NCBI RefSeq assembly: GCF_900168195.1
Contig: NZ_FUYX01000001.1
Location: 496,001 to 560,000 of the forward strand
Length of the DNA: 64,000 nt
Source of the DNA: Allobosea thiooxidans
GTDB taxonomy: Bacteria > Pseudomonadota > Alphaproteobacteria > Rhizobiales > Beijerinckiaceae
Direction of reading: 5' to 3'
Below the pieces are notes generated by a model. The model saw only the letters and a list, made by a program, of their open reading frames with translations. It had not been told where the DNA came from and made no database searches. The position numbers were made by a program, and so were the translations under genes. Below, piece after piece: positions 14,027 through 44,971 of the stretch (its first letter is position 1; the number at the start of each line of letters is the position of its first letter).

Positions 14027-14140
14027 GTCTGCCCTCCTCTGGATCGGCATGACGACGGATTCGAGGCAGGATATGGCCCTCGCCCCGGCGAATGGCCACC
14101 CTGCTTGACGCATATCCGGGCGTCACCGCATGACAGGGTC

Positions 14141-14638
14141 ATGCTGCGCCTCGCCCTGTTCCAGCCGGACATCCCGCAGAACGCCGGCACGATGATCCGG
14201 ATGGCGGCCTGCCTCGGCATTGCCGTCGACATCGTCGAGCCCGCGGCCTTCGACGTGTCGGACCGGCATTTCCGCCGCTCGGGCATGGACTATCTCGAGC
14301 GCGCCGCCGTGATGCGCCACGATTCCTTCGCGGCTTTCGAGCGCTGGCGCCACGACCATGGGCACCGCCTCGTCCTTGCGGAGACCGATGGCACGACCCC
14401 ATTATCTGATTTCGTCTTCCGGCCCGACGACATCGTACTGGTGGGACGCGAGTCGGCCGGCGTCACGCCCGCAGTGCAGGCCGCGGCCGAGGCCAGCCTC
14501 CACATTCCGATGCGGGCGGGATTGCGTTCGCTCAATGTCGCATTGGCCGCGGCGATGGTAATGGGCGAGGCGTTGCGACAGACAGGCGGCTTTCCGGGCC
14601 GCGACGGAAACGACCATGGACACCCCGAAGCCAGCTGA
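14141..14638 (+). CDS. trmL: tRNA (cytidine(34)-2'-O)-methyltransferase TrmL
   Basis: A SPOUT-class methyltransferase that 2'-O-methylates the wobble base of certain leucine tRNAs. The 165-residue protein shows the family pattern: [20 protein letters not shown] at the N terminus, then [11 protein letters not shown] and [19 protein letters not shown] of the SAM-binding trefoil knot. The ATG at 14141 gives the standard [14 protein letters not shown] start. Its 3' end overlaps the start of hemF by 23 bases, so the two are probably co-transcribed. Confidence 0.94.
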
Positions 14639-36059: not shown

Positions 36060-37040
36060 CTACTTCTTCTCCGGCTTCGGCGGCGGATTCGGGTCGGCCG
36101 AGAAATGCCGGAACACCATGTCGGGCGAAGAGGTGTTGTGGCGCGAATGGGTGGTGCGGCCCATCCAGATGTCGGTCGCATTGCCGCCCTGGAACGGCAT
36201 CAGCTTCTCCTCGCGCCAGCCCTTGGCGCCAGGCTCGCGCACGGCGATGCGGGCGACGTCGTTGTTGAATTCGGTGACGTACATCGAGCGCAGCGCGACG
36301 AAGGCCTTGCCGCCCGTGACCGGCTTGTCGAGCACCGCATCGAGCACCATCCGGTTCTCGTCGACGCTGTCGAGCCTCAGGCTGCCCGCCGAGCCGTCCT
36401 TGAAGTTCAGCTTGAAGGTCAGCGTCTTCGGATCGAAGTCGATCTCCTTGATATTCACCACCGGGCGGCCGTCCTGTTCGATCGGCCCGAACAGGAAGGA
36501 GGAACCATAGGAGGAGAAGCCGAGATGCTGCGGCGGCATCGGCCGGGCGCGCCAGTAGCCGTCCTGCGGATAGACGACGAGCACCTCGTAGGACTTGTCC
36601 TTGCCGAGCTTCCAGAGCTGGACGAGATGCAGGCCCTTCTCGACCCGGTCGCCGACGCGGAAGGTCGTGTCGGCCGGGCGCCAGAAGGTCGGGAAGGTGT
36701 AGCCGACCAGCCAGTATTCGGTCGTTTCCCAGAAGGTGATGCGGCGCGGCGGCGTCGGCGCCGCGAAGGACGGGTCGCCCTTCATGTCGCAATTGGCCCA
36801 GTCCGCGTCCCAGTTGTCGCGCACGAGCCCGGCGATATAGGCCGGGTGCGCCGCCTCGATCTGGAAGCGCCGCACCTCCGGCGAGATCGCCTTGATCGTG
36901 ACGTTGTCCTTCTCGGCGCAGAGCACGGGCTCGGACTCGTTCTTCACCTCGACGGCAAGGTCGCCGGCGGCCAGCGCCGGACCGGCGAGGCAGGAGAGGA
37001 AGGCGACGAAGGCGGCGGCGCGCAGGCGCGGAAACATCAT
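36060..37040 (-). CDS. Exported hypothetical protein downstream of opgH-FkbM
   Basis: A 326-residue protein with a Sec signal peptide (FPRLRAAAFVAFLSCLAGPA, cleavage after ALA). The mature part has many aromatics (FWETTEYWLVGYTFPTFWRP; SSYGSSFLFGPIEQ) and looks like an all-beta periplasmic fold. I do not recognise the family. Cys59 and Cys101 (approximate) could form a disulfide. It lies 16 bases after the FkbM gene on the same strand, so it is probably in one operon with opgH. Two adjacent ATG codons (37040, 37037) are both possible starts. Confidence 0.75.
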   Translation of the reverse strand: MMFPRLRAAAFVAFLSCLAGPALAAGDLAVEVKNESEPVLCAEKDNVTIKAISPEVRRFQIEAAHPAYIAGLVRDNWDADWANCDMKGDPSFAAPTPPRRITFWETTEYWLVGYTFPTFWRPADTTFRVGDRVEKGLHLVQLWKLGKDKSYEVLVVYPQDGYWRARPMPPQHLGFSSYGSSFLFGPIEQDGRPVVNIKEIDFDPKTLTFKLNFKDGSAGSLRLDSVDENRMVLDAVLDKPVTGGKAFVALRSMYVTEFNNDVARIAVREPGAKGWREEKLMPFQGGNATDIWMGRTTHSRHNTSSPDMVFRHFSADPNPPPKPEKK

Positions 37041-37056
37041 GAGGCTTCGGTCTCGT

Positions 37057-37815
37057 TCAGCTCTGGAGGATGGCGTAGACATCGCCCGAGTTGGCGTCGT
37101 GAGGCAACCCGCGCAGATAATCGCCCATCGCCTCGGCGCTCGCCGGCGCGGCGAGCTCGAGCCTCTGGCTCTCTCCGATCGCGACGTTGAAGCGGTAGGG
37201 GCCGAGCGTCTCCAGCACGGCGAGGCAGGCTTCCGCAACCTCGCGCTGGATCGTGGTGAACTCGAAGGAGATCACCGGCACCGCCCGGGTCAGCCCGGCC
37301 AGCACATGCGCCTCGAAGCCTTCGACGTCGATCTTCAGCAGCTTGGGCAAGCCATGGCGCATGATCAGCCGGTCGAGCGTGGTGCAGGGCACGATGATCT
37401 CATGGTCCCAGACCTGCCCCTCCCAGCCGGCGGCCCCGGCCGCCGCCCCGATGAAGGCGGCCGACGCCGTCGAGACCGTGGGGTTGGCGCTGTTGATCCT
37501 GAGTGCGATCGATCCCTCATGGTCGCCGCAGGCCGCCTCGATCAGCGTCACCAGCGGATCGCGCCGGTGGATCAGGCGGATGATGCGGGCCGGCCCCGGC
37601 TGCGGCTCCAGCGCGACAACGCGCGCGCCGAGGCGCCGGAAGGACGTGACCCGGTCGCCGACATGGGCTCCGATGTCGAAGGCGAGATCGCCCGGTGCGA
37701 GGAAGGCGCCGTAGAGCCGGTCCATCGCCGCGTTGCGCTGCTTGTCGCCGTGATAGATGCGCAAGGAGCGCGAAAGCGCCTTCACCGTTCCCTTCGGATA
37801 GGCGATGGCGTTCAT
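37057..37815 (-). CDS. FkbM family SAM-dependent methyltransferase
   Basis: A 252-residue methyltransferase of the FkbM family. SAM-binding motif I reads LAFDIGAHVGDRVTSF, followed by VVALEPQPGPARII and the acidic loop LLKIDVEGFEAHVLAGL typical of FkbM. Such enzymes O-methylate sugars or polyketides. Its ATG overlaps the opgH stop by four bases, so it is translationally coupled to the glucan synthase gene. A role in methylating the glucan product or another envelope sugar is an inference from this coupling. Confidence 0.88.
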   Translation of the reverse strand: MNAIAYPKGTVKALSRSLRIYHGDKQRNAAMDRLYGAFLAPGDLAFDIGAHVGDRVTSFRRLGARVVALEPQPGPARIIRLIHRRDPLVTLIEAACGDHEGSIALRINSANPTVSTASAAFIGAAAGAAGWEGQVWDHEIIVPCTTLDRLIMRHGLPKLLKIDVEGFEAHVLAGLTRAVPVISFEFTTIQREVAEACLAVLETLGPYRFNVAIGESQRLELAAPASAEAMGDYLRGLPHDANSGDVYAILQS

Positions 37816-39641
37816 GCCCTCTCCCCGTCGCGGATGGCGGCCAGCACCGGCGGCATGTCGAAATCCTCTGGAATGCCGCACAGCCCGTGACGGACGAGCC
37901 AGGCGCCCGCGGCCGGCCAGGCCGTCAGCATCGCGAAAGGAATCGCCAGCACGTAGCCCGCCGTCAAGGGCAGCGACCAGAGCAGCACCGCCGGCGCCAG
38001 CATGCCGAGCGCGGTGAACAGATAGCTCCCGAACAGGAAATGCGGCCACAAACCCGCAAAGGCAGTGGCGAAGGACAGGGCATGGGCGTCGCGCGCCTGG
38101 CCGTTCCAGCCGATCCGCGCCTTCCCGAACAGCAGGCCGACCATGAACAAGGTGGTGCGGAAACTCGAGACTGCGCCTTGCAGGAAGGCGAACAGCACCT
38201 CGATCGCGGCCGAGAGCAGGAAACGCCCCGCCCCGCCATAGCGCCTGACGCCGCCGCGCGTCAGGAGGATGTCGGCGAAGCCGGCGAGCTTGGGCGAGAG
38301 ATACATCGCCAGGAACAGCAAATAGAGGCACGCTGCAGCCACCGTCGGATAGTCCGCGATCGCCCGGGCCTCGACAACCTCGAGCGGCAGCAGCGCGATC
38401 ATCAGTGTCCAGGCCGGCAGGCCGAGGAACATCAGGATCGCCCAGACGAGCTGGAAGCGGCTCATCGGCTTGAGATCGGGCAGGTCGAGCAACTTGAGAT
38501 ATTGCAGGTTGCCGAGGCACCAGCGCAGGTCGCGCTTGGCGAAATCGAGCATGGTCGGCGGATTTTCCTCCCAGCTCCCACCCTCGACCGGCAGCACGCG
38601 CACCTCGTAGCCGGCGCGGCGCATCAGCGTCGCCTCGACCTGGTCATGGCTCATCACCGCCCCGCCCAGCGGGGGTTTGCCAGGCAGGACAGGAAGGTGA
38701 CAGCAGTCGCGGAACGGCGCGATCCGCACCAGCGCATTGTGGCCCCAGAACGGGCCGCAATCGCCGCCCCACCAGGCCGAGCCCATCGTGTAGGGGCGCA
38801 TGCCGTGGCGCATGCCGAACTGGAAGATGCGGGCGAAGGCCGAGCGGCTGGGCATGCCGACGACGAGGCTTTGCAGGATGCCGAGCCGCGGATGCGCCTG
38901 CATCATCCGGGCCATGCCCAGGATCGTCTCGCCCGCCATCACGCTGTCGGCGTCGAGCGGCAGCATCAACTCGTAGCGCTCGCCCCAGCGCTCGCAGAAA
39001 TCGCGGAGATTGCCGGCCTTGAAGCCGGCATTGTCGCTGCGGCGTCGATAGGTCAGGCGCGCCGGCTCGCCGATTTCGCGAGCCCAGCGCTCGGCCAGGG
39101 CCTCTTCCGCCGCCGCCACGACGGGATCGCTGGTGTCGGACAGGACGAAATAGTCGAACCAGACGCCCTCCCCGGTTACGTCGAGGCTATCCTTCACCAC
39201 CCTGAGCCGGCGGAAGGCACGCTCCGGATCCTCGTTCCGGAGCGTCATCAGCACGGCGGTGCGCAGGACGAGCGGCGTCGCCCGCTCGCCGGCCAGGGCG
39301 AAGGGCGCGACCTGCTTCAGCCCCTCCCGGCGACCATGCAGCAACCAGAGCCCGATCACGGCGTTCCAGAAACCCAGCACGGTCCAGGGCGCGCCGAAGA
39401 GAAAGGCGACGAAGATCGCCACATCCGCCGCGCTCCAGCCCCCGGCCCCGAGCACATGGGCGAGCCCGCCCAGCAGCAGGGCGAGCGTCGCGAGGTTGAG
39501 CGCGAGAACGAAGAGACGCCGACGCCGCAGGCCGGCTTCGTTCTGCAGCCCGGCCGGAGTGAAGCCGATCGGTGCTCCCTCTTGCGCCGCCGGCCGGAAC
39601 GTGGTCGGAGCGGGGCGCTGGTTCATGGCGGTTTCTGTCAT
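37812..39641 (-). CDS. opgH: Glucans biosynthesis glucosyltransferase OpgH/MdoH
   Basis: A 609-residue inner-membrane glycosyltransferase (GT2) that makes the beta-1,2-linked osmoregulated periplasmic glucan chain from UDP-glucose. Visible are two N-terminal helices, the GT2 core with DTSD (residues about 150-160), MLPLDADSVM (DxD-like), GDCGPFWGHNALVR and the acceptor-site motif KRDLRWCLGNLQY, and at least four further C-terminal helices. A partner opgG is not adjacent; instead an FkbM methyltransferase overlaps the 3' end. Two starts exist (39641 MTETAMNQ, 39626 MNQRP). Only 37 bases separate 39641 from the divergent dehydrogenase start, leaving little promoter space. Confidence 0.92.
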   Translation of the reverse strand: MTETAMNQRPAPTTFRPAAQEGAPIGFTPAGLQNEAGLRRRRLFVLALNLATLALLLGGLAHVLGAGGWSAADVAIFVAFLFGAPWTVLGFWNAVIGLWLLHGRREGLKQVAPFALAGERATPLVLRTAVLMTLRNEDPERAFRRLRVVKDSLDVTGEGVWFDYFVLSDTSDPVVAAAEEALAERWAREIGEPARLTYRRRSDNAGFKAGNLRDFCERWGERYELMLPLDADSVMAGETILGMARMMQAHPRLGILQSLVVGMPSRSAFARIFQFGMRHGMRPYTMGSAWWGGDCGPFWGHNALVRIAPFRDCCHLPVLPGKPPLGGAVMSHDQVEATLMRRAGYEVRVLPVEGGSWEENPPTMLDFAKRDLRWCLGNLQYLKLLDLPDLKPMSRFQLVWAILMFLGLPAWTLMIALLPLEVVEARAIADYPTVAAACLYLLFLAMYLSPKLAGFADILLTRGGVRRYGGAGRFLLSAAIEVLFAFLQGAVSSFRTTLFMVGLLFGKARIGWNGQARDAHALSFATAFAGLWPHFLFGSYLFTALGMLAPAVLLWSLPLTAGYVLAIPFAMLTAWPAAGAWLVRHGLCGIPEDFDMPPVLAAIRDGERA

Positions 39642-39678
39642 GGAGGCAGACAGGCTCGGACGAACGGGATCGGACACG

Positions 39679-40698
39679 ATGGCGCGGGAGCTAAAGCCTG
39701 CAACGACCGTTGACGCAAGGGCAAAGGCTCTTGCTCTTTGGTATGCCGCTCCCCGTGAATGCAGCCTGAATGAGGTTCCGCTGCCGGTGCCGGCCGGGGA
39801 CGACTGCCTGGTCACGACACTGTGGAGCGGCCTCAGCCGCGGCACGGAGCGGCTGGTCTTCGAAGGGCGCGTACCGGCTTCCGAACATGAGCGCATGCGC
39901 GCGCCGTTCCAGGAAGGCCAGTTTCCGTTCCCGGTGAAATACGGCTACTGCGCCGTCGGCCGCGTCGACGCCGGCCCGCCGGAGATGCTGGGACGCATCG
40001 TCTTCTGCCTCCACCCGCATCAGGACCGTTTCATCGTGCCGCTTCGCAGCCTGACGCCGGTGCCGGACGCCGTGCCGGCCCGGCGGGCGATCCTGGCCGC
40101 CAACATGGAAACCGCCCTGAACGCGCATTGGGACGCCGGTTCCGGCCCGGCCGACCGGATCGTCGTGGTCGGAGGCGGCGTCCTCGGGCTGCTCGTCGCC
40201 TGGCTCGCCGCGCGCCTGCCGGGCAGCGAGGTGACGCTCGTCGATATCGAGCCCGGCCGCGCCGCCCTGGCGACGGCGCTCGGCTTCGCCTTCGCCACGC
40301 CTGACGCGGCACCGCGGGATGCCGATCTCGTCTTCCATGCGAGCGCCACCGCCGCCGGCCTCGCGACGGCCGTCGCCGCGGCCGGCACCGAGGCCCGGAT
40401 CGTCGAATTGAGCTGGTATGGCGAGGGTGCGGTCCCGGCCCCGCTTGGCGGCGCCTTCCACGCACGTCGCCTCCAGCTCATCTCCTCGCAGGTCGGCATG
40501 ATCGCCGGCTCGCGCCGGGTGCGCTGGGACCATGCGCGCCGCGCGCTGGCCGCCATGGCGCTTCTCGCCGACGACCGTCTCGACGCCCTGATCACCGACG
40601 AGATCGCCTTCCGCGACGCTGACCGGCGCGTCCCCGAGCTGCTCGCCGCCGGCGCTGCTGGCCTGACTGCAGCGATTTGCTATGAAACGCGGCCATGA
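39679..40698 (+). CDS. Medium-chain dehydrogenase/reductase, BchC-like, lacking zinc ligands
   Basis: A 339-residue MDR-fold protein. The catalytic-domain segment reads TTLWSGLSRGTERLVFEGRV, as in BchC-type dehydrogenases. The usual zinc ligands (Cys of CGICGSD, GHE) are not seen, so it is probably a zinc-independent oxidoreductase. The Rossmann motif is VVVGGGVLGLLVAWLAARL, with Asp at the strand end (LVDIEPGR) suggesting NAD(H). It starts the operon MDR - pterin-synthase-like - GT4 - methyltransferase. Its start at 39679 is only 37 bases from the divergent opgH start. Confidence 0.88.
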   Translation: MARELKPATTVDARAKALALWYAAPRECSLNEVPLPVPAGDDCLVTTLWSGLSRGTERLVFEGRVPASEHERMRAPFQEGQFPFPVKYGYCAVGRVDAGPPEMLGRIVFCLHPHQDRFIVPLRSLTPVPDAVPARRAILAANMETALNAHWDAGSGPADRIVVVGGGVLGLLVAWLAARLPGSEVTLVDIEPGRAALATALGFAFATPDAAPRDADLVFHASATAAGLATAVAAAGTEARIVELSWYGEGAVPAPLGGAFHARRLQLISSQVGMIAGSRRVRWDHARRALAAMALLADDRLDALITDEIAFRDADRRVPELLAAGAAGLTAAICYETRP

Positions 40699-40731
40699 CG
40701 GCGCCGCCCCTCGCGCCAACCGGGAGATCGC

Positions 40732-41133
40732 ATGTTTTCCGTCGAAGTCCGTGACCGCATCATGATCGGCCATTCCCTGCCCGATCCCTTCTTCGGCCCG
40801 GCGCAGGCCATGCACGGCGCGACCTTCGTCGTCGATGTCGCCTTCTTCCGCGAAACGCTGAACCGCCAGAACGTCGTCGTCGACATCGGCGCCGCGCTCG
40901 ACGTGCTGTCGCGGACCCTGAAGCCGCTGAACTACCAGAATCTCGATGCCCTGCCGCAATTCGCCGGCGTGCTGACCACCACCGAATTCCTGTGCAAGCA
41001 CATCTTCGACGCGATGGCCGCCGCCGCGAAATCCGGCGCGCTGGGTGCCGATGGCACCGGGCTCGCGAAGATCCGCGTGACATTGCACGAGACCGACCTC
41101 GCCCGCGCCAGCTATGAGGGCGCGCTGGCGTGA
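40732..41133 (+). CDS. 6-pyruvoyl/6-carboxytetrahydropterin synthase-like protein, catalytic residues replaced
   Basis: A 133-residue protein of the PTPS/QueD fold. Aligning by eye to E. coli QueD: zinc-ligand His16 is kept (His14, IMIGHSL) and His31 is kept (His28), but His33 is Ala30 (HGATFVV instead of HGHSF). The nucleophile Cys27 is lost (Ala24). The LDHHYLN segment reads LNYQNLD, replacing Asp70 and His71 by Asn67 and Tyr68. Glu110 is kept (Glu120 in LHETD). A normal Zn-dependent pterin synthase reaction is therefore unlikely; it may bind a pterin or catalyse something new. GGGAG precedes the ATG. It overlaps the GT4 gene by four bases. Confidence 0.85.
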   Translation: MFSVEVRDRIMIGHSLPDPFFGPAQAMHGATFVVDVAFFRETLNRQNVVVDIGAALDVLSRTLKPLNYQNLDALPQFAGVLTTTEFLCKHIFDAMAAAAKSGALGADGTGLAKIRVTLHETDLARASYEGALA

Positions 41134-42194
41134 GCGGTATCGTCTTCGCCATTCCCGGCGATATCGATGCCCCGACCGGCGGCTATGGCTATGACCGCCA
41201 GCTGCTGCGGGAATGGCGCGAGACGGGCACCGAGGCACGCCATCTCGCGCTGCCCGGGTCCTTCCCCTTTCCGACGGCGGAGGACCTGGCGACGACCGAA
41301 CGCCTCCTGGCAGAAACCGCTTCCGACGAGGTGCTGCTGATCGACGGCCTCGCCTTCGGCGCCTTCCCCGAAGCGCTCGCCGCACGCTTCGCCGACCGCC
41401 TCGTCGCGCTCGTCCATCATCCGCTGGCGCTGGAGACCGGCCTCGCCCCGGACGAGGCTGCCTTCCTGCGCCACAACGAAAGAGCGGCCCTCGGCCATGC
41501 ACGGGCCGTCGTCGTGACCGGCCCGGCCACGCGCGACCTGCTCGCGGAAAACTATGCCGTTCGGCGCGACGCCATCACCGTTGCCGTTCCGGGCACCGAA
41601 CCGGCGATCCGCGCGACGCGGGCAAGCATCGGCGCCACGGTGCGCCTGCTTGCCGTCGGCTCGATCATCCCCCGGAAGGGCTACGACGTCCTCGTCGAGG
41701 CACTCGCGGCCATCCGGGATCGGCCATGGACCATGACGATCGCCGGTTCGCCCGATTATGCCCCCCGCACCGTCGCACTCCTGCACGACCGGATCGCCAG
41801 GGCCGGGTTGGCGGATCGGATCTCGCCTGTGGGCAGCGTGGACTCGGGCGCGCTATGGCGGCTCTATGACGGGGCCGATATCTTCGTCATGCCATCGCTC
41901 TACGAAGGCTACGGCATGGTGCTGACGGAAGCGCTGGCGCGCGGCCTGCCCATCGTCACGACGCTGAGCGGGGCCGGGGCCGCGGCCCTGCCCGATGCCG
42001 CCGCCCTCAAGGTGCCGCCCGGCGACACCATGGCACTTGCCAAGGCCCTCGCCAGGCTGATTGATGCGCCGGCCGACCGCCGGCAGCGGGCCGACGCCGC
42101 ATGGGCGGCAGCCGGCGCCCTGCCGCGCTGGCAGGACACCGCGCGCATCGTCGCGCGGGCCTGCCTGGGCGACGGCAGCCGAGAGGTGGGGTAA
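41130..42194 (+). CDS. Glycosyltransferase family 4 protein
   Basis: A 354-residue GT-B fold enzyme. The N half starts with IVFAIPGDIDAPTGGYGYD (acceptor-side GG loop). The C half has LAVGSIIPRKGYDVLVEAL and the donor-binding E-x7-E motif FVMPSLYEGYGMVLTEALAR, as in retaining GT4 enzymes. Its ATG overlaps the stop of the pterin-synthase-like gene (ATGA) and its stop overlaps the methyltransferase start (TAATG). The tight coupling suggests it glycosylates the product of this pathway rather than a cell-surface polymer. Confidence 0.9.
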   Translation: MSGIVFAIPGDIDAPTGGYGYDRQLLREWRETGTEARHLALPGSFPFPTAEDLATTERLLAETASDEVLLIDGLAFGAFPEALAARFADRLVALVHHPLALETGLAPDEAAFLRHNERAALGHARAVVVTGPATRDLLAENYAVRRDAITVAVPGTEPAIRATRASIGATVRLLAVGSIIPRKGYDVLVEALAAIRDRPWTMTIAGSPDYAPRTVALLHDRIARAGLADRISPVGSVDSGALWRLYDGADIFVMPSLYEGYGMVLTEALARGLPIVTTLSGAGAAALPDAAALKVPPGDTMALAKALARLIDAPADRRQRADAAWAAAGALPRWQDTARIVARACLGDGSREVG

Positions 42195-43033
42195 TGGCTG
42201 GTTTCTCTCCCGAATGGCTCGCCTTGCGCGAGCCCGCGGATCACGCGGCGCGCAATCCGCAGGTGCTCGCCGCGGTCGGCGCGCATTTTTCCGGCAGGCC
42301 GTCGCTGTCCGTGGTGGATCTCGGCTGCGGTGGCGGCTCCAATCTGCGCGGTTCCTACGCTGCACTGCCCGACCGCCAGCATTGGACCCTGATCGATCAC
42401 GATCCCGCGCTGCTCGACCATGCCCGCGCCCGCCTCGCCGAATGGGCGGACGAGGCGCGCGAGCAGGGCGAGGAGCTCGTCCTCACCAAGGACGAGAAGC
42501 TGATCACCGTCGATGCGCGCCGGGTCGATCTCGACCGGGACCTCGAATGGGTGCTGGGCTGGCAGCCCGATCTCGTCACGGCCGCCGCGCTCTTCGACCT
42601 GACGTCGCGGCGCTGGATCGAACGTTTCGTCGCGGCGCTCGCGAGCCAGCGCCTGCCGCTCTACGCGGTCCTGACCTATGACGGCCGCGAGGACTGGCAG
42701 CCGCCGCACCCAGCCGATGCCGGCACGCAGGCGGCCTTTGCCGACCATCAGCGCGGCGACAAGGGTTTCGGCCCAGCCGCCGGTCCCGATGCCTGCGAGG
42801 TCATGGCCGAGGCGTTCCGCAAGACCGGGTTCGCAGTCTCGACCGGCGACAGCAGCTGGCTGATCGACGATGACCGGGCCGCACTGCGTGCGGCGCTGGC
42901 GGAGGGCATCGCCGATGCGGTGCGCGAGACCGGGCGCCTCGACCCGGCGGAATTGAGCGACTGGCTCTCGGCCCGCCGGAGCGCACGATCGGCCCGGATC
43001 GGCCATCAGGATCTCTGGGCGCGCCCCGTCTGA
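42194..43033 (+). CDS. Class I SAM-dependent methyltransferase
   Basis: A 279-residue methyltransferase. Motif I VVDLGCGGGSNLRGS, then TLIDHDPALLDHARARL (ribose-binding acidic residue), and LVTAAALFDLTSRRWIERFV mark the Rossmann SAM domain. It is the last gene of the MDR - PTPS-like - GT4 - methyltransferase operon and is overlapped at the first base by the GT4 stop. GAGAGGTGGGG is its ribosome-binding site. The substrate is unknown; co-action with the GT4 on one small molecule is inferred. Confidence 0.9.
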   Translation: MAGFSPEWLALREPADHAARNPQVLAAVGAHFSGRPSLSVVDLGCGGGSNLRGSYAALPDRQHWTLIDHDPALLDHARARLAEWADEAREQGEELVLTKDEKLITVDARRVDLDRDLEWVLGWQPDLVTAAALFDLTSRRWIERFVAALASQRLPLYAVLTYDGREDWQPPHPADAGTQAAFADHQRGDKGFGPAAGPDACEVMAEAFRKTGFAVSTGDSSWLIDDDRAALRAALAEGIADAVRETGRLDPAELSDWLSARRSARSARIGHQDLWARPV

Positions 43034-43039
43034 AGCCGC

Positions 43040-43603
43040 CTAGCCGGCCCCCGGCCACATCCGGCGCAGGACCCCATCCTTGCGGACGAACCGGTGATAC
43101 AGCGCCGCCGCGATGTGCAGGGCGACGAGCGCGCCGAAGGTCAGCGCAAGCTTGCCGTGGATGCCGAGCACGCGCTTCGCCGCCTCCTCGTCGGGCTTGG
43201 CCAAGGCCGGCAGATCGAACAGGTCGAAGATCGTCAGGGCCGGGAACAGCGAGACGCCGGTCCAGCCCAGGAACGGCACGACGAGCAGAAGCCCGTAGAG
43301 CAGCCAGTGAACGAGATGCGAGACGACCTTCTGCCATCGCTCCAGCGTCGGCTCGTCCGGCGGGGCGCCGTGCAGCAGGCGGTAGATCAGCCGCCCTGCC
43401 GTCAGCCACAGCAACAGGAAACCGGTGAGCTTGTGCGCGCTGTAGAGGCCGTTGGTCAGCCCGTCCCACAGGTTCAGGACATTGCCGCGATAGCTCATGG
43501 TGAGGCCGACGGGGATCATGACGAAGACCGCGACGACCGTGATCCAGTGCAGCGTGCGGGCGACCGGGCTGTAGACCGCGGCTGGCGGCATCTCCTTCGG
43601 CAT
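43040..43603 (-). CDS. Cytochrome b561 family protein
   Basis: A 187-residue four-helix membrane cytochrome b of the bacterial b561 (CybB-like) family. It mediates quinol-linked electron transfer. Candidate haem ligands lie in RTLHWITVV, YSAHKLTGF, LVHWLLYG and GIHGKLALTF or VALHIAAALY. The start at 43603 follows a good AGGAGG. It runs opposite to, and separates, the methyltransferase operon and the GTP cyclohydrolase gene; its stop is 6 bases from the methyltransferase stop. Confidence 0.92.
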   Translation of the reverse strand: MPKEMPPAAVYSPVARTLHWITVVAVFVMIPVGLTMSYRGNVLNLWDGLTNGLYSAHKLTGFLLLWLTAGRLIYRLLHGAPPDEPTLERWQKVVSHLVHWLLYGLLLVVPFLGWTGVSLFPALTIFDLFDLPALAKPDEEAAKRVLGIHGKLALTFGALVALHIAAALYHRFVRKDGVLRRMWPGAG

Positions 43604-43843
43604 GGCCGGCCTCCTCATCCTGCCGCTGGGGAAGGCATTCATCTCACGTTCAAGCGCTACAGCCTATACGGTGCAGCCCCGGCCGGGTTCCCGACGCCCC
43701 GCTTCCGCATGTCCCTTGCGGCGCGGAACCGTGCCGCGTCGGGAACGTTGCTGGAAGGGCGGGCCAAGACGCCCTATATCGATCCTCGATGGTGCCTCTG
43801 ATGCTCCTCGGCCGCTCGCCGGCCCAATCTGACGGACTTCCCG

Positions 43844-44971
43844 ATGCCTGAGTCGCGTACGCTCTTCGGCCGCTCCCTCGAAACTTCTCTCGTGAAGGTG
43901 GACCGCGCGATCGCCGAGTTCCGCGCCGGCCGTCCGGTGCTGCTGCGGGACGCGGACCGGCTCGCGCTCACGCTCTCGGCCGAGCTAGCCGACGAGGCGC
44001 TGGTGCGCGGCCTGGACGCGCTCGCGCGCGGCGGCGGCCACCTCGTCCTCAGCGCGGCGCGCCTGCGCCGCCTGGGTGCCAAGGGCCGCGCCGAAAGCGG
44101 CATCTTCGCCCTGCCCGCGATCGATCTCGGCCGTATCGAGACGCTCGCGCTGAAGATCGACGCGCGGATGGACGCGCCGACCGCACCGGCCTCCGCCGTC
44201 GACGAGGCCGCGCTGGAGCTCGCCCGCCTGTCGCTCGTCCTGCCGGCCGTCATTGTCATCCCGGTCGCCGAAGCGGACATCGCCGGCGAGCCGCTGGTCG
44301 AGGTCGCGATCGAAGCTATCAACGGCTATCGCGCCGAGCAGGCGGCCTCGCTCAGGATCGTCGGTCGTGCGCCGGTACCGCTCGAAGGGGCGCCGGAGAC
44401 CGAATTCGTCGTCTTCCGCGGCGGCGAAGGCCTGCGCGACCAGGTCGCGATCGTGGTCGGCAAGCCGAATCTGGATTCGGCAGTGCCCGTGCGGCTGCAT
44501 TCCGCCTGCCTCACCGGCGATCTCTTCGGCTCGCTGAAATGTGATTGCGGCGACCAGCTGCGCGAGACGGTGCAATGGATGGCCGAGAATGGCGGCGGGG
44601 TCCTGCTCTATCTGGACCAGGAGGGCCGCGGCAACGGCATCTCCAACAAGATGCGCGCCTACAAGCTGCAGAGCCAGGGCTGGGACACCTATGACGCCGA
44701 CGAGGTGCTCGGCTTCGACCTCGACCAGCGCCATTTCGACTTCGCCGCGACGATGCTGAAGCAGCTCGGCGTTTCCAGCGTGGTCGCCCTGACCAACAAC
44801 CCTCAGAAGATCGGCGCGATCGAGGCCGCGGGGCTCGAGGTCGCCGCGAGCCAGCGCGTGCTCGGCCGCCCCAACGCGCACAATGTCCGTTATCTCGCCT
44901 CCAAGCGCGACCGTGCCGGCCATTTCATCGACATGGACGCGCTGATGGCGCGCGCGGCTCCGACGGATTGA
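43844..44971 (+). CDS. ribA: GTP cyclohydrolase II with degenerate RibB-like N-terminal domain
   Basis: A 375-residue protein. The C-terminal GCHII domain (about 178-370) is intact: zinc Cys222, Cys233 and Cys235 (RLHSACLTGDLFGSLKCDCG), LDQEGRGNGI, and Tyr273 in RAYKLQ. It should open the imidazole ring of GTP. The N-terminal ~175 residues resemble 3,4-dihydroxy-2-butanone-4-phosphate synthase, but the metal-site motif DDRENEGD is replaced by RDADRLALTLSAEL, so that activity is lost. QEGRGNGI is also unlike the usual QEGRGIGL. It may supply riboflavin, or, by context, the adjacent pterin-like pathway. Confidence 0.88.
   Translation: MPESRTLFGRSLETSLVKVDRAIAEFRAGRPVLLRDADRLALTLSAELADEALVRGLDALARGGGHLVLSAARLRRLGAKGRAESGIFALPAIDLGRIETLALKIDARMDAPTAPASAVDEAALELARLSLVLPAVIVIPVAEADIAGEPLVEVAIEAINGYRAEQAASLRIVGRAPVPLEGAPETEFVVFRGGEGLRDQVAIVVGKPNLDSAVPVRLHSACLTGDLFGSLKCDCGDQLRETVQWMAENGGGVLLYLDQEGRGNGISNKMRAYKLQSQGWDTYDADEVLGFDLDQRHFDFAATMLKQLGVSSVVALTNNPQKIGAIEAAGLEVAASQRVLGRPNAHNVRYLASKRDRAGHFIDMDALMARAAPTD

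Follow-up and report, generated by a model that had tools for sequence, protein, structure and literature searches.

We analysed a 64,000-nucleotide stretch of the Allobosea thiooxidans genome (Bosea below; contig NZ_FUYX01000001.1, positions 496,001 to 560,000; the window), which carries four packed plus-strand genes and, beyond them, a gene for GTP cyclohydrolase II (GCHII). The four genes encode a distantly BchC-like dehydrogenase of the MDR family (39679..40698, + strand), a SCO6650-type protein of the 6-pyruvoyl-tetrahydropterin synthase (PTPS) fold, or T-fold (40732..41133, +), a GT4 glycosyltransferase (41130..42194, +), and a class I S-adenosylmethionine-dependent methyltransferase (MT; 42194..43033, +). 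Open reading frame coordinates and junctions (33, -4, and -1 bp: a 33 bp gap between MDR and PTPS, an overlap of 4 bases between PTPS and GT4, and one of 1 base, TAATG, between GT4 and MT) bear out one tight unit, as proposed in a first-pass annotation made from the sequence alone. That annotation also described overlaps among the last three genes, of which the lengths and the TAATG junction stand, but the PTPS/GT4 overlap is GTGA rather than ATGA, since GT4 starts with GTG. The families it named were confirmed, including GCHII (43844..44971, +), which lies past a single opposite-strand gene for a cytochrome b561 family membrane protein (43040..43642, - strand; domain match).

The PTPS-fold protein was assigned from its PF01242 T-fold match (71.2 bits; cut-off 22.4), a relative of solved structure, and its residue pattern. 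Its relatives at 88-92% identity are, where named, Bosea. The C-terminal Glu that it shares with QueD and PTPS (COG0720), along with the PF01242 fold, is what we take to be the pterin-binding residue. Together with H14, H28, and E85, this residue (E120) is conserved in all 102 matched loci among 103 searched; the PTPS of the remaining locus (L136) was not matched by the window query and has the same four residues in the alignment. The enzymatic signature of QueD and PTPS, three zinc His and a catalytic Asp-His (LDH), is incomplete, with two of the three zinc ligands remaining. In 100 of 102 loci the third zinc His is Ala (HGH to HGA) and the triad His is Tyr, the exceptions being two haloarchaeal proteins (L128, L137) that retain His at the zinc site, and Gln or Gly occupies the site aligned to the catalytic Cys. 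Curated scores are also far below their equivalog and subfamily cut-offs (TIGR03367, 29.5 of 89.25 bits; TIGR00039, 23.8 of 125.5 bits). Housekeeping QueD was thus ruled out as the identity of this protein, and the pterin-synthase function that had been read from its fold needs correcting: with these catalytic residues lost, ordinary pterin-synthase chemistry is not to be assumed. The window protein is the only PF01242 match in the genome, so no ordinary QueD was found in this Bosea genome.

SCO6650 of Streptomyces coelicolor (PDB 3d7j), which is listed as uncharacterised, is the one close relative of solved structure. Full-length similarity (136 bits with a single sequence, 215 bits with a profile that includes SCO6650) and a common conserved residue pattern place the window protein in the SCO6650 subfamily. 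The structure paper of 2008 reportedly described no zinc and no PTPS activity, and a protein that could bind pterin. The S. fungicidicus orthologue of SCO6650 (91.7%) lies within a gene set of similar kind.

The MDR gene was called from its open reading frame, NCBIfam score, and co-occurrence with PTPS. BchC, the bacteriochlorophyllide dehydrogenase, is its top-scoring named NCBIfam relative, yet the score of 59.8 of 291.25 bits against the TIGR01202 equivalog rules out BchC itself. The first profile matches include butanediol, galactitol-phosphate, iditol, and sorbitol dehydrogenases, mainly via the nucleotide-binding part. Compared by eye with zinc MDRs, the zinc-ligand positions (S-G-L-S-R-G-T-E and Y-G-Y) are not conserved, so the enzyme may work without zinc. 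GT4 matches PF13692 (97.5 bits; cut-off 27) and has an EGYGMVLTE (E-x7-E) motif. The MT was recognised by domain and fold, with every family below cut-off (24.6 of 30 bits for the domain), and a fold search returned generic class I enzymes only (best 3mgg_B, Z 19.9, rmsd 3.3, 235 aligned), which gives no hint of substrate.

The GCHII assignment draws on score, residues, and a predicted model. The protein exceeds the cut-offs of PF00925 (163.2 bits; 23.3) and NF006456 (PRK08815; 493.9 bits; 464) and carries three zinc Cys, HSACLTGDLFGSLKCDC. In the model (mean pLDDT 87.3) the GCHII domain superposes on 2bz0_B (Z 23.7, rmsd 1.7, 173 aligned), and residues 10-169 fit RibB (3,4-dihydroxy-2-butanone 4-phosphate synthase) structures (7uez_B, Z 16.1, rmsd 3.0, 147 aligned). 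The RENEGD-type motif is replaced: DDDDRENEGDL in the genome's other RibBA reads RDADRLALTLS in the window protein. Predicted fold and replaced active-site motif together uphold the earlier description of a dead RibB-like N-terminal domain. We take Tyr at position 105 of Escherichia coli GCHII to be the switch for release of 2,5-diamino-6-ribosylamino-pyrimidinone phosphate (APy). The window enzyme has Tyr at this site (Y273), as do the cluster GCHIIs of 43 of 45 loci (one other has Met, one Leu), and from this residue these enzymes are predicted to release APy. The Leu enzyme (L094, about 14057-14443) is unlike the other 44 at this site. The other two PF00925 proteins of the genome are a RibBA with an intact RibB motif and no zinc Cys, and a variant-motif protein that is PRK07198-like by eye. 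The RibBA with its zinc-less GCHII domain (G000, contig C15; L125) and the window protein with its dead RibB and complete GCHII domains form a complementary pair.

Co-occurrence was surveyed in 297 genomes from 123 genera, drawn evenly from the order. PTPS (cut-off E 1e-15) is present in 89 of them, and a cluster-type MDR (E <=2.7e-99) in 89 of those 89 and in 0 of the other 208 (Fisher p 3.5e-78; such p-values ignore kinship, which inflates their significance). This count excludes, as a different MDR, the matches in 13 of 102 genomes (best E 3.4e-76 to 1.7e-58). The MDR gene is <3 kb from PTPS in 85 of the 89 genomes. MT was found in 82/89 PTPS-positive genomes compared to 3/208 PTPS-negative ones, and full-length GCHII (query start <=20, E <=5e-50; G207, with start 116 and E 4e-65, was added by hand) in 46/89 compared to 7/208. 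A further partner, a dedicated RibD C-terminal-type reductase (RibD_C), was not visible in the window since Bosea has no dedicated copy; it is present in 66/89 PTPS-positive genomes and in 1/208 PTPS-negative ones (G159, 56% complete).

These associations extend beyond gene adjacency. Among the 46 genomes with full-length GCHII, it is <20 kb from PTPS in 19, farther away on the same contig in 7, and on another contig in 20; five more PTPS-positive genomes have a short GCHII <20 kb from PTPS. RibD_C lies <5 kb from a window-type GCHII in 27 of 35 cases, and in 9 genomes the two stand together >10 kb from PTPS or unlinked to it (5 on the same contig, 4 on another), indicating that supply and tailoring modules can separate. 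At least seven families (f1, f2, f11, f24, f29, f31, f35) hold both PTPS-positive and PTPS-negative genomes, so the co-occurrence is not one inherited block. The refutation proposed in the first-pass annotation, that homologues of these genes would not be found together elsewhere, therefore fails, and they behave as one functional unit.

In a set of 61 relatives, full-length GCHII is present in 41 of 42 PTPS-positive genomes and in none of the 19 PTPS-negative ones (E 1e-20), three of which have partial C-terminal matches. Zinc Cys residues were read in 17 of these 19 genomes (G045 and G052 fall outside). A GCHII-domain match without them occurs in 14 of the 17 (L141-L154), and in 13 of the 14 it is the sole PF00925 match; G037 and G041 have the canonical zinc motif, and G059 has HSECLTGEAF, which the motif pattern does not match. 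These counts weaken the explanation that the window-type GCHII is merely the riboflavin enzyme of the order. The PTPS-negative genomes without zinc Cys seem to do without such an enzyme, consistent with the BrbF route. According to PMC9478397, BrbF, of the creatininase family, is a demonstrated formamidase for formylated APy (FAPy) in a riboflavin route of Rhizobiales, and the GCHIII of that setting is described as undiscovered.

Gene neighbourhoods were compared in 80 named loci, the best 80 of at least 570 confirmed stretches found via PTPS; several end at contig ends, and some are one genome drawn twice (L033, L118), making the counts partly non-independent. By tblastn across the 80 loci, matches were found for MT in 77, GT4 in 72, MDR in 72, cytochrome b in 41, and GCHII in 35, and clustering of open reading frames added RibD_C in 43; two RibD_C proteins that were checked have no deaminase domain match. 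The same gene order is retained widely among the 80 loci and, within the order, in four other loci (L032, L033, L034, and L036) at 36-58% protein identity, the L036 stretch being without GCHII; this is more than chance would give. Among the 58 loci of >=18 kb, 48 have all four core genes, 58 at least three, and 41 GCHII or RibD_C. The position of GCHII varies, being downstream in Bosea and upstream in both Rhizobiaceae (opposite strand) and several Rhodobacteraceae (same strand); its recurrence on varying sides and strands points to selection and not to inherited order.

Gene sets of this kind extend to beta- and gammaproteobacteria, actinobacteria, and haloarchaea, so the restriction to Hyphomicrobiales in the first-pass annotation was too narrow. 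Plasmid records with MDR, PTPS, GT4, and MT include Agrobacterium, Rhizobium, and Methylosinus within the order and, with RibD_C in addition, Microbacterium and Thiodictyon. Those of S. fungicidicus and S. globisporus hold MDR, PTPS, GT4, MT, a CDP-alcohol transferase, a creatininase, and GCHII, the S. globisporus cluster also having RibD_C. Reduced sets are found in Rhodobacteraceae SC52 (MDR, PTPS, and MT, no GT4) and Arthrobacter (MDR, PTPS, and GT4 alone), and Nonomuraea, with a distant MDR alone, is a counter-example. Among haloarchaea, MDR, PTPS, and MT are present in Haloarcula, Halomicrococcus, Natronorubrum, Haladaptatus, and Halobellus, with GT4 between them in 5 of 8 records.

In several haloarchaea the GTP-opening enzyme is of a different kind. 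Haloarcula GH36 and H. pelagica have a GTP cyclohydrolase (GCH) III/IIa gene directly before MDR (PF05165, 272.6 bits in GH36), and one is annotated likewise in H. halophila. In Natrarchaeobaculum (L167, 7240-10458), the place after GCH IIa and MDR where PTPS is expected is taken by a hypothetical gene and an IS5 transposase, and no PTPS was found. In H. sinaiiensis and H. marismortui a creatininase-family gene lies some 5-6 kb upstream, and the stretch read there contains no GCH IIa. Since GCH III and GCHII both open GTP without being related, selection for the GTP-opening reaction is the best explanation for one standing in the place of the other. Judged from sequence, the conserved element is the chemistry, GTP to diaminopyrimidine. 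Both the recurrence of GCHII and this non-homologous replacement vindicate the earlier inclusion of a GTP cyclohydrolase in the unit.

A third arrangement is suggested by the Streptomyces clusters. Both of their GCHIIs have Met at the E. coli Tyr105 site, in this resembling SCO6655 of S. coelicolor and differing from the Tyr of the window enzyme and 43/45 cluster GCHIIs, and both adjoin a creatininase-family gene. Met at the switch is said to make SCO6655 stop at FAPy. The Streptomyces and Haloarcula creatininases match PF02633 and score 37.0 and 21.2 of 180 bits against ArfB (NF033501), so ArfB proper is unsupported; deformylation of FAPy by the cluster creatininase would fit its position. 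The route of PMC9478397 likewise has a creatininase-family enzyme after the FAPy-forming step; BrbF, however, serves riboflavin, whereas the creatininases here are neighbours of the PTPS cluster in Streptomyces and Haloarcula. PMC2853524 lists SCO6655 among S. coelicolor genes whose expression is anticorrelated with predicted flux, the majority of which are upregulated in stationary phase. Among proteobacterial loci, L073 and L034 alone match the creatininase (28-34% identity).

Taken together, we consider it somewhat probable (about 0.58) that the gene set encodes an as yet unassigned pathway that starts from GTP, branches off at the first step of riboflavin synthesis, and yields a pterin-like compound that is methylated and in many cases glycosylated. 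From the gene families we infer the following reactions, their order, and the product. Opening of GTP to APy would fall to GCHII, to GCH III, or to a FAPy-type GCHII working with a deformylase of the creatininase family. The next enzyme, in most of the order's lineages, would be the dedicated RibD_C, reducing the ribosyl to a ribityl chain and leaving the 2-amino group on; in Bosea, which has no dedicated reductase, the housekeeping RibD may perform this reduction, or the step may be skipped. The PTPS-fold protein would use its invariant Glu to hold the 2-amino-4-oxo ring and, jointly with the polyol-dehydrogenase-like MDR, would modify or cyclise that ring, probably to a pterin. MT would methylate the product and GT4, where present, add a sugar. 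Attachment or export at the envelope would probably involve one of two sets of membrane partners: MdoH, in some cases joined by a glucan ABC exporter, or a CDP-alcohol transferase accompanied by proteins that are flippase-like and sulfatase-like. The glycosylated and methylated pterin-like product suggested in the first-pass annotation therefore stays a prediction, and its deazaflavin-like alternative is without support; no F0-synthase gene was recognised among the recurrent partners of the loci, where no targeted search was made.

These membrane partners also underlie the main rival explanation. Divergent to the operon, the window encodes an MdoH membrane glucosyltransferase (37812..39653, - strand) that exceeds the NF003963 equivalog cut-off (935.1 of 884 bits), followed downstream by an FkbM-family methyltransferase (37057..37815, -; start taken from the reading frame). 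The protein adjoining them (36060..37190, -) has no Pfam match at E 0.001, and a relative of it occurs in 24/80 loci. MdoH is matched in 51 and FkbM in 27 of the 80 loci, and an ABC transporter cluster (c15) in 8, of which one tested (L095) scores 813.9 of 733 bits against the glucan exporter model NF010178. In Betaproteobacteria, including L095, MT, this exporter, and MdoH stand together beside the core. Among the 58 longer loci, MdoH is present in 39 and the CDP-alcohol transferase in 10, both in one locus and neither in 10; the transferase is accompanied by flippase-like (PF03706) and sulfatase-like genes. An 'LTA-synthase-like' label for the latter was dropped: two of four score 23.1 and 24.1 of 25 bits against Pfam Sulfatase, the other two have no Pfam match, and NCBIfam and PDB returned none. 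The membrane partners suggest envelope attachment or export, and the same genes could mean that GT4, MT, FkbM, MdoH, and the exporter make, decorate, or export a glucan or glycolipid, with a sugar or lipid as the substrate of PTPS and MDR, and with GCHII as a passenger gene from riboflavin synthesis. Two PTPS-negative genomes lend weight to this explanation, as they keep MT beside an exporter gene (G037, 811.3 of 733 bits) or near a sulfatase-like gene (G046), which favours an envelope role for MT. The pairing of cluster-type methyltransferase and glucan ABC exporter genes in a genome without PTPS is seen at L165 (6634-7479 and 7498-9270). However, GCHII and RibD_C track PTPS across genomes even where unlinked, GCH III substitutes for GCHII in haloarchaea, 19 of 58 loci keep the core without MdoH (9 of them with the CDP-alcohol transferase), and the PTPS Glu is invariant. 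We therefore regard a pure envelope glycan cluster as unlikely, while the envelope-sugar part of the earlier caveat, that separate known pathways (riboflavin, envelope sugar) explain the set, stays as a rival.

Several observations weigh against the pterin-like pathway itself. With its zinc ligands seemingly missing, the MDR has only putative dehydrogenase activity, and the persistence of MT in G037 and G046, along with the MdoH and glucan exporter partners, favours an envelope glucan. The window GCHII is the sole canonical CxxGD...CDC protein among the genome's three, so it may also serve riboflavin, and the Bosea genome has no dedicated RibD_C. Full-length GCHII is missing from 43/89 PTPS-positive genomes, dedicated RibD_C from 23/89, and both from 12/89; conversely, GCHII occurs without PTPS in seven genomes, five of genus g36 and two others. 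A profile of RibD_C (13 rows, own RibD included) is closest to the stand-alone reductases 6p8c, named for the diaminopyrimidine, and 2azn, which speaks for a reductase role. Its proposed place before deamination is uncertain: the depositors of 2azn name it a uracil reductase, and two RibD_C proteins from other genomes score highest with the general ribD_Cterm model and at 112.7 and 108.5 of 186.45 bits with the archaeal-type reductase TIGR01508. The creatininases score best against MftE, below its cut-off. Finally, three Streptomyces plasmids (L131, L132, L140) carry a SCO6650-type PTPS without the other genes. Near these solo copies are genes for cupin, sigma-factor, and BTAD-regulator proteins, joined by a MEKHLA-domain gene in L131 and L132.

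The remaining proposals fare less well. A more specific pterin route independent of GCH I is, we think, distinctly unlikely: after RibD-type reduction, MDR would oxidise C2' and PTPS would join the 5-amino group to the new ketone, so that reduction and re-oxidation take the place of the Amadori rearrangement. Ring closure would give 7,8-dihydroneopterin phosphate, and methylation, optional glycosylation, and membrane attachment would lead to an envelope pterin common to bacteria and haloarchaea. Improbable, too, is a riboflavin supply or secretion module in which PTPS, MDR, GT4, and MT modify extra flavin or lumazine. GCHII and RibD_C are riboflavin-type enzymes, and the zinc-less RibBA and the window GCHII protein of Bosea complement each other. 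Against this stand the 14/17 PTPS-negative genomes that lack zinc Cys and seemingly do without window-type GCHII, and the lack of a deaminase domain match in the two RibD_C proteins tested; no RibB, RibH, or RibE was recognised among the recurrent partners, again with no targeted search. Least probable of all is a sensor or carrier role for the PTPS-fold protein, which would bind a pterin made elsewhere, beside genes for a separate sugar compound. Its lost catalytic residues suit such a role, as do the solo Streptomyces copies, whose neighbours are cupin and sigma-factor genes and, in two of the three cases, a MEKHLA-domain gene, but the coupling of PTPS to MDR is perfect in the 297-genome sample, genes of the operon overlap, and the residues retained are those of the active site.

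For the favoured GTP-to-pterin-like pathway, known compounds indicate what kind of product the gene set would be expected to yield. Limipterin and cyanopterin are glycosylated pterins whose synthesis starts from dihydroneopterin triphosphate and uses GCH I and true PTPS; no GCH I was seen in the PTPS clusters, where it was not searched for. A literature search, with most subscription papers outside its coverage, returned no paper recognisably on this gene set and no assigned product. PTPS marks the pathway in 89 of the 297 genomes sampled from one bacterial order, and the gene set extends to other phyla and to archaea. If our interpretation is correct, 3d7j, solved but uncharacterised, would gain a role, the extra GTP cyclohydrolase of some organisms would be explained, and a short list of genes would be defined whose deletion should remove one metabolite.

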